Origin: Bacteroidales bacterium | Lineage (GTDB): Bacteria > Bacteroidota > Bacteroidia > Bacteroidales > UBA10428 | Direction: 5' to 3' | Length of the DNA: 33,374 nucleotides | Assembly: GCA_016926205.1 (NCBI GenBank) | Contig: JAFGPB010000011.1 | Span: 1-33,374, forward strand | Shown: piece after piece, positions 1 to 5,746 of the stretch | How positions within the stretch are numbered: position 1 is the first letter of the stretch | How the letters are laid out: every line of letters starts with the position of its first letter | Program-made: the position numbers and the translations under genes | The notes under the pieces: model-generated | What the model was told of the DNA's origin: nothing | The model's input: the letters and a program-made list of their open reading frames with translations, nothing else | The model's database searches: none

Positions 1-699
1 GCCTGGTACTATGCCCGCGAAGGAAAAGAAATTGTTATTAAGCGCGTGGCTAATATCAGTGATACGGAAGTTTCGGCTTTTCTTAATGGAGCTATTCTGG
101 GAGCGCTTTTACACCAACGCAAGATGCTGCCTCTTCATGCAAGTACAGTGGTTTATCATAATAAAGGGCTTTTATTAGCCGGTATGTCCGGTTCCGGAAA
201 ATCAACTCTTGCAGCTGCTCTGGTAAATGAAGAGACTACACTGGTAGCAGATGACATTTCTGTGATTGATTTTAAAGCTTCTGGTCCTGGTGTATTGCCG
301 GCATTTCCATCCATCAAGCTTTGGGAGGACAGTCTAAAATATTTAAATATATCAGTTGATAAGCTTCAACCCGTACGGGATGAACTCAGGAAGTTTTATG
401 TACCAGTGGATCACTTCAGTCATAAATCCGAAAAGATCGATCAGATTTTCATATTAAGATCCCACAATCTGTTTGATTATGAAGTTCAAAAATTAAAGGG
501 CGTTGATAAATTCAGCGTATTGAAGAAACATACTTACCTTTTCAGGGGCATTCCGAAAACAGGACTTGAGGAGAATCATTTCAGACTGGTGAACCAACTG
601 GCTTCTCAGGTTCCAGTGACTGTACTTACCAGACCAAATACTGAATTCAACACTTCAAAGCTGATTGCAAAAATTGATGAGATCATCAATAGCGACTAA
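1..699 (+). CDS. HPr kinase/phosphorylase-like P-loop kinase, 5' partial
   Basis: The reading frame is open from base 1, so the true start lies upstream of the window; the GTG at 46 is only an internal codon. The visible 232 residues contain an LHAS motif followed by a Walker A loop GMSGSGKST (bases 181-207) and a following acidic ADDIS segment, the layout of the C-terminal kinase domain of HprK. Such truncated HprK-like proteins are known in lasso-peptide clusters, where some phosphorylate the precursor peptide. Here the gene stops one base before a sulfotransferase and is followed by an asparagine-synthetase homologue and a nucleotidyltransferase, which supports a role in peptide tailoring rather than carbon catabolite control. 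The substrate is inferred, not shown. An HPr regulatory kinase is the alternative, but the missing N-terminal part cannot be judged. Confidence 0.8.
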   Translation, partial: AWYYAREGKEIVIKRVANISDTEVSAFLNGAILGALLHQRKMLPLHASTVVYHNKGLLLAGMSGSGKSTLAAALVNEETTLVADDISVIDFKASGPGVLPAFPSIKLWEDSLKYLNISVDKLQPVRDELRKFYVPVDHFSHKSEKIDQIFILRSHNLFDYEVQKLKGVDKFSVLKKHTYLFRGIPKTGLEENHFRLVNQLASQVPVTVLTRPNTEFNTSKLIAKIDEIINSD

Positions 700-700
700 T

Positions 701-1552
701 ATGGATGATCTGAAGAAAATTGTCTGGCTGGCTTCTTATCCGAAATCGGGCAATACCTGGTTCAGGGCTTTTTTGACTGCATTGCTGGATCCTGAAGGCA
801 AATTACCGGATATTAACCAGCTTCATCTTGCCACTATCGCAAGCAGCAGACAATTGTTCGATGAACTGGCAGGTGTGGCATCAGCTGACCTTACTGCGGA
901 TGAGATCGATCATCTCAGACCAAAGATATACCGACTAAATGCAATTGAATCTGAGGAAACGATATACCATAAGATACATGATGCCTATACGCTTTTGCAG
1001 GATGGCAAATCCTTGATACCTGACAATATCACAAAAGCAGTACTTTATTTTATACGCAATCCGCTCGATGTGGCCGTTTCTTTTTCGCACCATCTTTCGA
1101 TAAGCATTGATAAAACGATACAAATTATGAACAATCCTGATTATGCATTTTGTGACAGAACTGACCGGTTGCATAACCAGCTCAGACAACGCCTGTGTAC
1201 CTGGAGCGGTCATGTAAAAAGCTGGGTTGATAAATCAGGGCTTCCATTGATAGTTATTCGGTATGAGGATATGCTGGATGATCCTCCCGGAACCTTTGGC
1301 AGGGCGACTGAGTTTATCGGATTGGAGTACAACAAACAGCAGGTGAATGAAGCATTGGAAAAATGTTCATTCGATAAACTCAGGGAACAGGAAAAAGCTA
1401 AAGGTTTTCAAGAAAAAAGTGCAAAGGCAGCAAGTTTTTTCAGAAAGGGTATTTCGGGTGACTGGAAGAACGTTCTGACACCTGAGCAGGTTCAGCAGAT
1501 TGTTAAAGCACATGGGGAGGTTATGGAAAGGTTTGGATATTTAAATGATTGA
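701..1552 (+). CDS. PAPS-dependent sulfotransferase family protein
   Basis: A 283-residue protein starting at the ATG at 701, one base after the preceding stop. The P-loop-like 5'-phosphosulfate-binding motif YPKSGNTW lies at residues 13-20, immediately after a hydrophobic beta strand. A 3'-phosphate-binding motif IRNPLDVAVS follows near residues 118-127. The C-terminal part has the KGISGDWKN segment typical of the cytosolic sulfotransferase fold. The family moves a sulfo group from PAPS to a hydroxyl or amine. An in-frame TTG at 665 would overlap the kinase gene and add 12 residues before the natural N-terminus, so ATG 701 is preferred. The position between an HprK-like kinase and an Asn-synthetase homologue suggests it modifies the same peptide or glycan product. 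The acceptor cannot be read from sequence. Confidence 0.88.
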   Translation: MDDLKKIVWLASYPKSGNTWFRAFLTALLDPEGKLPDINQLHLATIASSRQLFDELAGVASADLTADEIDHLRPKIYRLNAIESEETIYHKIHDAYTLLQDGKSLIPDNITKAVLYFIRNPLDVAVSFSHHLSISIDKTIQIMNNPDYAFCDRTDRLHNQLRQRLCTWSGHVKSWVDKSGLPLIVIRYEDMLDDPPGTFGRATEFIGLEYNKQQVNEALEKCSFDKLREQEKAKGFQEKSAKAASFFRKGISGDWKNVLTPEQVQQIVKAHGEVMERFGYLND

Positions 1553-1747
1553 ATCCACTCAAAAAAGAGGAACTTTTCCAGTCTAAATGTAATATAATCA
1601 ATTGACTATACTACCTATAATCTCCTTTAAAGGGGGATAGAGATCATGCAATTATGAAAGAATGCTATTCCTCAGTTAGTTTTTAAACAAATTGTAATTC
1701 TCATTCAATAGTTCGTGGTAATTTAGGACGCGATAAAGTATTGAGCA

Positions 1748-3805
1748 TTGCCACCAATATTTGGAATACACCGCATCGATCTGAAAGTTCCGGATTCTGA
1801 GATGATTAGTCGCATGAAGCATGCGGCCAGATATATGATTCCCAGACAGTTGAAATCTCTGGAGTTTTCAGGCGGTTGGTTTGCTACGGCTTTAAGAAAT
1901 GATCATGCAAGCGGTGAGATCGGAGAAGATGTTTTAAACAGGGTCGATAATGAACATAACAAATGTGGTTTACTCCGATACGGAAATTATGTTTTGGCTG
2001 CGGATGTTACTTTATACAAACGGGAGGAATTGCTGGGAAGACTTAATCTGGAGTCTCATGATCATTCCATGACGGATGCAGCTTTGATAATGGAAAGCTA
2101 TCTGAAATGGGGAACATATTGTACGAAGCATCTGTACGGTGATTATGCCTTTGTTATTGTTCACACAAAAAACGGGGAAATATTCTGCGGGAGGGATCCG
2201 CTCGGAGTCCGGCCGTTATTTTACAGCCTGAGAAACGATTGTTTTGTTTTTGCCTCGGAACTCAGGTATGTGGTCCAGTCCTTTGGCAGAAAACCGGATA
2301 TCGATGAGGATTATCTGCTTGATACGCTGGTTACGGTCAAATCAGCGAAAAACCTCTCACCTTTCGAAAATATTTACCGCTTGCCACCCGGACACACACT
2401 TTCGTGCGTTAATGGAAGGATTAACCTGAATCCTTTCTGGTTGCCGGATTCTGATAGAGTCATTGAAAAGGGAAAGGAAAATGAGCCTGAATTGGCAATG
2501 AATCAGAACCGGGGCAAGGGAGCTGATCCTGCATTGGAAAATCAGCATGAGAAAAATCAGCATGAGAAAGAGCATCATGAGAAAAATCAGCATGAGAAGG
2601 AGCAGGAATGTATCGAAACACTGCGTGAGAAACTGGTAGATGCGGTGAATATGCGGTGCAATGGGGCAGTTACCCTTGGTTCGGAATTAAGCGGGGGACT
2701 TGACTCCTCGACAGTTGCAGGTATAGCTGCGGCGTTCGCTGATAGTAATAAGATTCCCTTTAAAACTTATTCCAATATTTTCCCTGATAATGCTGATATT
2801 GAATTTAAGGACGAAAAGGAATTCATTCATCAGATGCTGGAATTCAGGAAGATGGAGTGGACCGGCATTGACAGGCTGAAAAGAACCATCCCGGAACTGC
2901 TGCAATTCGCCATGGATGTTCAGGGATGCTTTGTTCAGCAAAACTTTAATATTTTTAACCAGGGTATATATGAGGCAGCAGGCAGACAGGGAATTGATGT
3001 GTTGTTATCAGGTTTTGGCGGGGACGAGATGGTCTCTGCCCGGATTGCTTTCCCGTGGAATGAGATCATTGGTGAAGGGAACTGGAGAGTACTGACAGAT
3101 GAGCTTTTTTATAAAGGATTATCGGTAAGAACATTACTCAGGACGGGAAAGATTTTCTCCAGATATATTTATTCCCGGTTCCAACGGTCGGATTATAGAA
3201 CCGGTGTGTTCACAATTGAACTGCTGCGCCGGCGGTTTACCAACTTGCCATTGTGGCCTGATTTTGCACTGAGTCATGGACTGAAGAAAAGGTATGAAGA
3301 AAAACACAAAATGCCGGCAAAAGGAAGGATATCAGCCAGACAACTGGAAAAACTGAAGCAGGATCATTTGCCCCAGCGCCTGGAATATTGCTATGCGGCT
3401 GCTGCACAATATGGACTGGAATACCGTTATCCGTTGCTTGACCTGAACCTTGTTGAAACGTACCTGTCATTGCCCGTTTGGCTGAGACAGCGTCACGGGA
3501 CAAATCGTTATTTATTCCGTGAAGCCATAAAAGATTTTGTGCCGGAAGGGATCAGAACACGTGATGATAAATCGGGAACGACAATACCCCAAACATATTA
3601 CAGCCTGATCCGGGGAAAAGATACCATTTATTCTATACTGAACGATGCATCAAAATCTCCCTACCTGAATACAATATTTGATTTCAGCCGTTTTCCTGAT
3701 TGGTATAACAAACTCGTGAAGAGGGAGCAGAAAGAAATGAACTACTTGATGCCCGGAGCTTTTTATCATTATCTGATGTTGATGTTGTACTATAAATACA
3801 CCTAA
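1748..3805 (+). CDS. Asparagine synthetase homologue lacking catalytic Cys (lasso cyclase-like)
   Basis: 685 residues. An N-terminal glutaminase-like domain (about 1-235, with GDYAFVIV and GRDPLGVRPLFY motifs) is followed by a synthetase domain carrying the PPi loop SGGLDSS at residues 315-321. The start is a TTG: an in-frame stop sits at 1742-1744, and the PPIFGI sequence right after the TTG is the expected N-terminus of the family. Ordinary AsnB needs Cys2 as the glutaminase nucleophile; here that position is Pro, so glutamine-dependent asparagine synthesis is unlikely. Lasso-peptide cyclases are such homologues and activate a side-chain carboxylate by adenylation to close the macrolactam. 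A charged linker with four NQHEK-type pentads (residues 265-284) separates the two domains. Neighbours support peptide maturation; another amide-forming role remains possible. Confidence 0.85.
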   Translation: MPPIFGIHRIDLKVPDSEMISRMKHAARYMIPRQLKSLEFSGGWFATALRNDHASGEIGEDVLNRVDNEHNKCGLLRYGNYVLAADVTLYKREELLGRLNLESHDHSMTDAALIMESYLKWGTYCTKHLYGDYAFVIVHTKNGEIFCGRDPLGVRPLFYSLRNDCFVFASELRYVVQSFGRKPDIDEDYLLDTLVTVKSAKNLSPFENIYRLPPGHTLSCVNGRINLNPFWLPDSDRVIEKGKENEPELAMNQNRGKGADPALENQHEKNQHEKEHHEKNQHEKEQECIETLREKLVDAVNMRCNGAVTLGSELSGGLDSSTVAGIAAAFADSNKIPFKTYSNIFPDNADIEFKDEKEFIHQMLEFRKMEWTGIDRLKRTIPELLQFAMDVQGCFVQQNFNIFNQGIYEAAGRQGIDVLLSGFGGDEMVSARIAFPWNEIIGEGNWRVLTDELFYKGLSVRTLLRTGKIFSRYIYSRFQRSDYRTGVFTIELLRRRFTNLPLWPDFALSHGLKKRYEEKHKMPAKGRISARQLEKLKQDHLPQRLEYCYAAAAQYGLEYRYPLLDLNLVETYLSLPVWLRQRHGTNRYLFREAIKDFVPEGIRTRDDKSGTTIPQTYYSLIRGKDTIYSILNDASKSPYLNTIFDFSRFPDWYNKLVKREQKEMNYLMPGAFYHYLMLMLYYKYT
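2540..2599 (+). repeat. Four 15-bp tandem repeats (NQHEK pentads) in the interdomain linker
   Basis: Four in-frame copies of a 15-base unit (aatcagcatgagaaa and close variants) encode NQHEK, NQHEK, EHHEK and NQHEK. They lie between the glutaminase-like domain and the synthetase domain of the Asn-synthetase homologue. The unit is a multiple of three, so copy-number changes would lengthen the linker without shifting frame. Confidence 0.95.
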
Positions 3806-3813
3806 CTGCCTAA

Positions 3814-4965
3814 TTGTTGAACAGATTTGATGCTGAAATACCGGTTTTGCTAAAAATACTTTCCGGGGAGGAGGATATAGTGCTCCCTGGAAAAGACTTC
3901 AGCACAGATCAGCTTATCAGGTTGGCTTTGATGCACAGGGTTACGGGTCAGTTTTATCAATATGTCAGGCATCATCCCGGGATTTTTTCGGATGAACAAC
4001 TTGAATTGCTCGATAAGCGGGTAAAGCAAAACGCTTCCCGTTCCCTGTTGCAGTTGCATGAACTGCTCCGTATATGCAGGGAATTTAACCGCAGCGGCCT
4101 GTCATATGCATGTATGAAAGGACCTCAGCTTGCAAAGATGATTTATGGCAGGGAAGCTTTGAAGGAATCAGTGGACCTGGATATCATGCTGGTGAATGAA
4201 TCAGAGCTGGAAACTGCCCACCGGGTTCTTATTGAACTGGGCTATGACCAGTCCAATTTACATGACTACAAAAGCAGGTTCGCGAAGAAGATCTTTCTGC
4301 TGGGGAAAAGGGAAGTCCATTATTTCAATGCAATATCAGGGTGCCATGTTGATCTGCACATCCGGGCTGCGGCCAATGCGTACCTTACGGCAGGCAGGTT
4401 CAGAGACCTGTTCACAGATTTGCAGTCATATGATCTTGAGGGCATTCCGGTACCGGTATTGCCTCCGGAAAAGTATCTGGTGTTCCTCTGTTATCATGGT
4501 GCGCTGCATCAGTTCGGCCGTCTGGGATGGCTGATGGACATCCGGTTTTTTATAATAAACATGGCAAAAGAACTTGATTTTAACAAAGTGGAATGGATTG
4601 CCAGATCACTCGGAACGGAACGGGCTCTCTTCCTGGTCTTCATATTGCTTAAAGAAATATTTGGTACTGAAATGGCTGGAAGCAAAACAGGCGGTAACGG
4701 GACGGTTGGAAATGGCACGTTCACAGATGAAATGGCAAGTTCAGCAATTGATATCCTGAAGCATAACCGTTCAATCCGCTATATGATTGGTGTGAGTGAG
4801 CGTATCTGGTCCAGGGATGCATCTTACACGCTTGGTTTTCGTGGCCGGCTGGAACGGTTTATATATTTGGTGATGCTCAGCAAGGATTTTGCTGCTAAAA
4901 TCGACCTTATTGCAGGGATTCTGACCAGAAATCTGCTGCCGGTCATGCGCTGGCTCAGATCATAG
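3814..4965 (+). CDS. Nucleotidyltransferase family protein (PF14907-like)
   Basis: 383 residues. The MKGPQLAKMIYG segment at 101-112 and the metal-binding DLDIML (Asp121 and Asp123) match the minimal-nucleotidyltransferase layout of the NTP_transf_5 family, with an HVDLH segment further on. An in-frame stop lies directly upstream at 3811-3813, so translation starts at the TTG at 3814 or the next TTG at 3817; the gene begins eight bases after the Asn-synthetase homologue and is surely cotranscribed. Members of this family occur in lasso-peptide and related clusters, sometimes beside HprK-like kinases, and may transfer a nucleotide or sugar to a phosphorylated peptide. A glycine-rich insertion around residues 288-305 is unusual. 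The substrate is not predictable; a polysaccharide-cluster role is the main alternative. Confidence 0.8.
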   Translation: MLNRFDAEIPVLLKILSGEEDIVLPGKDFSTDQLIRLALMHRVTGQFYQYVRHHPGIFSDEQLELLDKRVKQNASRSLLQLHELLRICREFNRSGLSYACMKGPQLAKMIYGREALKESVDLDIMLVNESELETAHRVLIELGYDQSNLHDYKSRFAKKIFLLGKREVHYFNAISGCHVDLHIRAAANAYLTAGRFRDLFTDLQSYDLEGIPVPVLPPEKYLVFLCYHGALHQFGRLGWLMDIRFFIINMAKELDFNKVEWIARSLGTERALFLVFILLKEIFGTEMAGSKTGGNGTVGNGTFTDEMASSAIDILKHNRSIRYMIGVSERIWSRDASYTLGFRGRLERFIYLVMLSKDFAAKIDLIAGILTRNLLPVMRWLRS

Positions 4966-5113: not shown

Positions 5114-5746
5114 TTATTCATTGAATTCGCTGCCCATAGGAATTTTACGAAATGCAAATCCTTGTTGCGAAAAATGGTCCAGGACCCTTGGCAAAGCATA
5201 TAGCATATTCATGGAGGCTTTTACGGAGTCATGAAAAACAATGATTGAGCCGGGTTTTGAATTTTTCAGAACATGGTCAAGACATTTTTCTTTCTTCACA
5301 TCAGGACGGAAATCATAGCTCAGCAGGCTCCACATGAATATCTTGTAGTAATGAAGAAGGTTTCTCGCCTGCGATGGTTTGATCATTCCGTAAGGAGGAC
5401 GGAACAATGAGGACGGTATAAACCTGGAGGCCAGCTTAACATCCGCATAATATTCAGAATTTTTTGTATGCCAACCTTTTATATGGCTGTATGTATGGTT
5501 TCCAATGGCATGACCGGACTGAATGATGGCATTGAAGATGGCAGGGTCTCTTTCCACGTTTCTTCCCGTACAGAAGAAGGTTGCTGATGCGTTGTATTTT
5601 TCTAAAATTTCCAGCACTTTCCCGGTAATTTCGGTATGCGGACCGTCGTCAAAGGTTAGATAAAGCTTGCGGTTGCCAGCCGGAATATTCCATACCAGTC
5701 CGGGTAACAGATTTTTTATCATCCGGTTCGGATTCCACAGGATCAT
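5114..5746 (-). CDS. Polysaccharide deacetylase (NodB homology domain, CE4)
   Basis: A compact 210-residue NodB domain. Motif 1 TFDDGP is at residues 31-36 (catalytic base and metal Asp), motif 2 HTYSH at 84-88 supplies the metal-binding histidines, motif 3 RPPYG is at 116-120, and VFHDS near 170-174 holds the late catalytic His172. The enzymes remove N- or O-acetyl groups from chitin-like glycans, peptidoglycan or xylan. No cleavable signal peptide is obvious; the first 20 residues are only moderately hydrophobic, so export is uncertain. It is the downstream gene of a minus-strand pair with the GT117 gene, separated by 113 bases, and probably belongs to envelope glycan metabolism. The start is the ATG at 5746; an internal Met9 is an alternative. 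Confidence 0.9.
   Translation of the reverse strand: MILWNPNRMIKNLLPGLVWNIPAGNRKLYLTFDDGPHTEITGKVLEILEKYNASATFFCTGRNVERDPAIFNAIIQSGHAIGNHTYSHIKGWHTKNSEYYADVKLASRFIPSSLFRPPYGMIKPSQARNLLHYYKIFMWSLLSYDFRPDVKKEKCLDHVLKNSKPGSIIVFHDSVKASMNMLYALPRVLDHFSQQGFAFRKIPMGSEFNE

Follow-up and report, generated by a model that had tools for sequence, protein, structure and literature searches.

A paeninodin-like gene cluster variant of Bacteroidales with a kinase-sulfotransferase module and a neighbouring gene for a protein with a type IX secretion signal

The window, that is, the whole stretch of DNA analysed, has 33,374 nucleotides and is contig C6, from base 1, of a Bacteroidales draft genome in 113 contigs (G000; GCA_016926205.1, contig JAFGPB010000011.1). 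Its left edge is the contig end, and the gene cluster located there is incomplete, as the initial annotation had supposed. Four genes lie on one strand with gaps of 1, 195 and 8 bases (K/ST, ST/C and C/NT, respectively), a description that the coordinates of the open reading frames bear out:

1-699, plus strand: K, HprK-like lasso kinase, 232 aa, 5' end open at the contig edge
701-1552 (from ATG), plus strand: ST, PAPS-dependent sulfotransferase (PF00685, 1.7e-33)
1748-3805, plus strand: C, lasso-type macrolactam synthetase of the Asn-synthetase fold, 685 aa (PF00733, 2.6e-36, and GATase_7)
3814-4965, plus strand: NT, nucleotidyltransferase of PF14907 (NTP_transf_5, 2.4e-44), 383 aa, candidate PsmN-like tailoring enzyme

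A polysaccharide deacetylase gene (5114-5746) is located next to the cluster. The identities first proposed for K, ST and NT agree with their Pfam/NCBIfam matches. K, about 75 residues shorter than its 307-aa orthologue in the related locus L030 (1970-2893, 77% identity), matches the HprK-type C-terminal domain and HprK_rel_A/B. It contains the Walker A motif (GMSGSGKST) and the catalytic Asp region (LVADD) of the HprK fold, and residues G133, S135, G138, K139 and D156 are invariant in the kinase alignment (A2). ST, for which a second possible start is the TTG at 665, is 82% identical to L030:2886-3737 and carries the motif RNPxDVAVS together with the 5' (YPKSGNTW) and 3' (RKGISGDWKN) PAPS-binding motifs of PF00685 sulfotransferases. 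NT has the metal motif DxD, as DLD in DLDIM.

The N-terminus of C reads M-P-P-I-F-G, with Pro at the position of the glutaminase Cys2, in accordance with the initial description of an Asn-synthetase homologue devoid of that Cys; none of ten aligned C orthologues has Cys there. The synthetase ATP motif is intact (ELSGGLDSS in C, ELSGGLDS being invariant across the ten sequences). The lasso cyclase family NF033535 is the top NCBIfam match of C, at 277 bits and below the cut-off of 525, which is a database threshold with no biological definition; the shortfall likely reflects the limited sensitivity of the model for Bacteroidota. A repetitive Gln/His/Glu/Lys insert (ENQHEKNQHEKEHHEKNQHEKEQE; window approximately 2520-2605) separates the two domains of C; in the nine other sequences of the alignment it is shorter or missing.

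Orthologues of C were sought across 148 related genomes and their neighbourhoods were then retrieved; in the contig scan a single C protein used as query gave no match, and an alignment succeeded. Eight further species of the genus have an orthologous locus, from which ST is missing in two, and a conserved locus consisting of K-ST, B1, B2, a short open reading frame and a gene for a very large protein is present in the genus and in neighbouring families. In most relatives K-ST is divergent from C-NT, the latter on the other strand. Among the loci examined, the one-strand order K-ST-C-NT of the window recurs only in L030, the closest relative (its contig is identical to JAFGRC010000042.1 of a Bacteroidales MAG), where B1, B2, the short open reading frame and the large-protein gene lie upstream of K on the opposite strand. 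The K-ST-C-NT set is found again at the orthologous loci of congeners and in further families; hence, the arrangement is not due to chance.

B1 is a PqqD-type RRE protein (PF05402) that in orthologous loci scores 91.1 and 85.5 bits with NF033536 (lasso_PqqD_Bac, cut-off 80). B2 is a protease matching PF13471/NF033537, with 48.1 bits in L032, above the NF033537 cut-off of 33, and 21.9 bits in L030, below it; a class-wide search with NF033537 returned few loci because the model misses the Bacteroidales branch. An RRE protein, a protease and a precursor with Thr at -2 had been predicted upstream of K, and relatives carry the three at the orthologous locus, the precursor with Glu at ring position 8-9. 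The lasso interpretation is thereby supported, although C scores under its NCBIfam cut-off. In several families the locus is flanked by purD and by a polysaccharide deacetylase/DUF2723 pair, and this fixed position suggests long vertical descent and a resident function in Bacteroidales, as opposed to that of a mobile weapon. Beside NT, a BlaI-like repressor gene and an M56-peptidase/TonB gene are found in L030 (7283-8997) and L038 (190-1896), the BlaI homology having been checked in L030 only; both genes are absent from the window. In two congeneric clusters without ST, L039 (G007) and L040 (G003), K is located about 50 bases from B1.

The gene that follows the precursor encodes a large protein with an SBBP beta-propeller, SprB repeats and a C-terminal type IX secretion (T9SS) signal (Por_Secre_tail or CHU_C), and PorP/SprF is often next. 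Examples are:

15335-18646 of contig C20 (G000, locus L124): large T9SS-tailed SBBP/SprB-repeat protein
3951-7610 of L031: the same type of protein, with a CHU_C signal
12099-15641 of L032: the same type of protein

On C20, a contig of the same genome as the window, the large protein reads out to the last base, and inward of it lie PorP/SprF and then purD, as in the relatives. Therefore, the ends of C20 and C6 are one locus cut in two by assembly. By comparison with L030, roughly 1.6 kb would have been lost, with the precursor gene (A), B2, B1 and the start of K. B1, B2 and A were searched for in the window's own genome and not recovered, on account of the contig break; their presence there would follow from that in the relatives. 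The window is thus very probably the right half of a Bacteroidales lasso-peptide cluster whose left half was split off by assembly.

The precursor is encoded by the short open reading frame between B2 and the large T9SS protein, away from C, and its leader follows the pattern W..P.L..L....T-x. With a slash at the predicted cut, the L030 precursor in full is MESKNNIDIKKKKKEWKVPELQIIPFKNTK/GGGRADTYEDTDYFNELSPHGL, and around the cut ...EWKVPELQIIPFKNTK/GGGRADTYEDTDYFNELSPHGL; those of L032 and L043 are ...DWNSPQLFSLDIKKTQ/SGSPYVGTEDGLYAPLES and ...LWTKPRIKSLKFNKTM/GGMVGGISESHYASPGEPS. Precursors on contigs labelled Planktophila (L161, ...KWEAPQLFKTDFDTTE/SGKTPSTFESGPYALS) and Acidobacteria (L153, ...QWVAPQLTILNAKSTE/VGAVVNTVEAYSYRPS) are similarly delimited, both bin labels being possibly wrong. 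The 60 cores counted have Thr at -2 and an acidic residue at 7-10, mostly at position 9; many loci outside Bacteroidota did not enter these counts, the leader-pattern search having found no precursor there, and L102 was excluded for having no acidic residue at core positions 7-10. Among the 43 cores from clusters with ST (ST+), the ring Glu is at position 9 in 30, at 8 in eight, at 10 in four and at 7 in one. The prediction of Glu or Asp at 7-9 holds for most cores. In the four with position 10 (L038, L101, L111 and L147) the first suitable Glu falls outside the known ring sizes of 7-9, so that the cut would lie elsewhere or the ring be larger.

The precursor gene lies directly upstream of the T9SS gene, on the same strand, for 29 of 40 Bacteroidota precursors, with a spacing of -67 to +85 bases, mostly 8-24, the overlaps possibly reflecting the choice of start codon. 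Since the large-protein query matches just seven further contigs in the window's genome, this adjacency is far above chance, although the loci are non-independent by shared ancestry. An exporter had also been expected upstream, and here the expectation failed: a motif scan of the 40 loci found no ABC exporter, an exporter elsewhere in the genome not being excluded. Export of the product is probable, and so, judging from gene order alone, is a joint function with the T9SS surface protein encoded beside it. The constant pairing with a T9SS gene, together with the missing ABC exporter, would point to an export route or function new for lasso peptides.

K directly followed by ST, often with overlapping genes, was found in 67 stretches after removal of known duplicates, a number that is no frequency, as sampling was centred on the families of the locus. 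The hosts are Bacteroidota and contigs labelled Desulfobacterota, Pseudomonadota, Acidobacteria and Actinobacteria, labels that may be wrong. ST was seen without K in five cases and K without ST in 53, several of these stretches being cut by contig ends. The set of kinase, nucleotidyltransferase and sulfotransferase had been called unusual in the initial annotation; in view of these 67 stretches, and of sulfotransferase genes noticed in lasso clusters since 2014 (PMC8498205, PMC4289311), the term does not apply to the kinase-sulfotransferase pair.

Of the 60 cores whose leader is clear, 31 of 43 ST+ cores have a tail Tyr, against 5 of 17 from clusters without ST (ST-; Fisher p=0.0035), or 14 of 20 against 2 of 11 when counted by taxon group (p=0.009), and ST+ tails are richer in Tyr than ST- tails (10.5% against 2.5%). 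A C-terminal Ser is found in 38/43 ST+ and 6/17 ST- cores (p=8e-5). Kinship was handled in these counts by family grouping alone, and L178 (ST+, no tail Tyr) was excluded. As both Tyr and Ser track ST, a modification of the peptide tail by ST is favoured, with the data not dividing between the two residues. A strict rule by which ST sulfates Tyr was dropped, given the 12 of 43 ST+ cores that lack a tail Tyr and the ST- congeners L039 and L040, which retain it. In L042, also ST-, Phe occupies the position of the tail Tyr. The paeninodin core, from a cluster free of ST, likewise has a Tyr near its end. The solved structures (PDB) that match ST include those of the glycopeptide sulfotransferases Teg12, Teg14 and StaL and of cytosolic phenol sulfotransferases, relatives that lean to Tyr as the target.

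The gene set, its motifs, the orthology, the anatomy of the precursor and the split contig are observed, and a pathway may be proposed with the chemistry of B1, B2, C, K and NT taken from characterised relatives. B1 would bind the leader of A through its W..P motif. K would phosphorylate the C-terminal Ser or one close to that end, and NT would place a sugar or nucleotidyl group on that phosphate. ST would use PAPS to sulfate the peptide, the most likely site being a tail Tyr 1-5 residues past the ring Glu. B2 would cut after Thr-x, and C would adenylate Glu8/9 and join it to residue 1 with the tail threaded. The site of sulfation and the order of the steps are no more than inferred. Kinases and nucleotidyltransferases are established members of lasso clusters (PMC8498205), as the initial annotation had stated. 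According to that source, the residue that the lasso kinase phosphorylates is the precursor's C-terminal Ser (citing Zhu 2016), and in pseudomycoidin the nucleotidyltransferase PsmN adds hexoses to the phosphate (citing Zyubko 2019). The core of L030 ends in Leu instead of Ser, which misfits this kinase rule and speaks against the pathway. At its most complete, the proposal is a long-established Bacteroidales family of tyrosine-sulfated, phosphorylated lasso peptides co-expressed with, and acting on or through, the T9SS beta-propeller/SprB-repeat protein, which possibly replaces the ABC exporter; so specific a combination is speculative and, taken as a whole, unlikely. If true, the locus would serve surface signalling or adhesion from a fixed place in the chromosome and would not be a roaming antibiotic cluster.

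Within the same lasso cluster, ST might instead target the region of the C-terminal Ser (a Ser/Thr hydroxyl, or the sugar added by K and NT), K and ST forming one module that yields a tail end of mixed phosphate and sulfate. This alternative is plausible, if somewhat doubtful. The correlation with ST is stronger for C-terminal Ser than for Tyr, the K and ST genes adjoin, and the ST+ cores devoid of tail Tyr would be accommodated; however, tail Tyr is four times as frequent in ST+ clusters, and peptides seldom carry sulfated Ser. Nor does ST need a sugar, since it is present without a detected NT in L043, L110, L113 and L115.

The coupling of precursor and T9SS genes, the absence of an exporter from the loci, the Glu at position 10 in four of the 43 ST+ cores and the divergence of C from characterised lasso cyclases could also mean that lasso-derived machinery has been turned to a non-lasso cyclic or linear peptide, or to a peptide attached to the T9SS surface protein. 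The complete A-B1-B2-C set, with Thr at -2 and Glu at 8/9 in most clusters, makes this quite improbable. That the four genes are a polysaccharide or sulfolipid locus, lasso-like by family only, is scarcely credible. The adjoining deacetylase would suit it, and envelope loci can hold sulfotransferases, PF14907 proteins and polysaccharide deacetylases; nevertheless, B1, B2 and a precursor are found beside K/ST in the orthologous loci of sufficient length, which rules it out unless the window's genome differs from its congeners. Polysaccharide glycosyltransferases upstream, with neither protease nor precursor, had been named as the finding that would speak against a lasso cluster; the relatives have the protease and precursor there, and no glycosyltransferases were seen in the cluster.

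The locus is, then, a variant of the paeninodin-like lasso cluster that includes a sulfotransferase module and has a puzzling T9SS neighbour. It shares with the paeninodin-type clusters of Firmicutes (PMC8498205) the split B1/B2, the AsnB-like C, the HprK-like K, Thr at -2 and a frequent C-terminal Ser, and in some of those clusters sulfotransferase and nucleotidyltransferase genes have been noted. It differs from them in its Bacteroidota host, in the fixed position of ST beside K, in the precursor coupled to a T9SS surface protein with no ABC exporter found, and in the divergence of C, K and B1. Sulfotransferase genes were noted in lasso clusters of Firmicutes and anaerobes, their role being untried there (PMC8498205, PMC4289311), and a lasso cluster of Bacteroidota was mentioned for Amoebophilus asiaticus (PMC8831229). 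The pseudomycoidin cluster likewise combines K and a nucleotidyltransferase for the lasso tail; unlike here, where NT directly follows C, the set described in PMC8498205 is without a sulfotransferase. Lpp RiPPs (PMC13381572) also have an RRE, an HprK-like kinase and an NTP transferase, but differ in a signal-peptidase-like protease and an MsbA-like exporter, and only about a third of their clusters are linked to canonical lasso enzymes. The neighbour with SprB repeats and T9SS signal, followed by PorP/SprF, resembles the cargo pairs of the SprB/SprF type (PMC9143113). No such pair linked to lasso peptides, no work joining lasso peptides and type IX secretion and no sulfated lasso peptide was found in the literature searched; most subscription papers lay outside the search, so this is weak evidence.

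Teg12, Teg14 and StaL, which are some of the solved structures nearest to ST, act on peptide antibiotics, where they sulfate phenols. Their substrates are non-ribosomal, and ST is more distant (42-56 bits by phmmer). Precursors from clusters with and without ST provide defined substrates on which sulfation can be tested. In L101, L102, L182 and L183 the cluster has two kinase genes, of which one or both are paired with ST, and L183 has two precursors.
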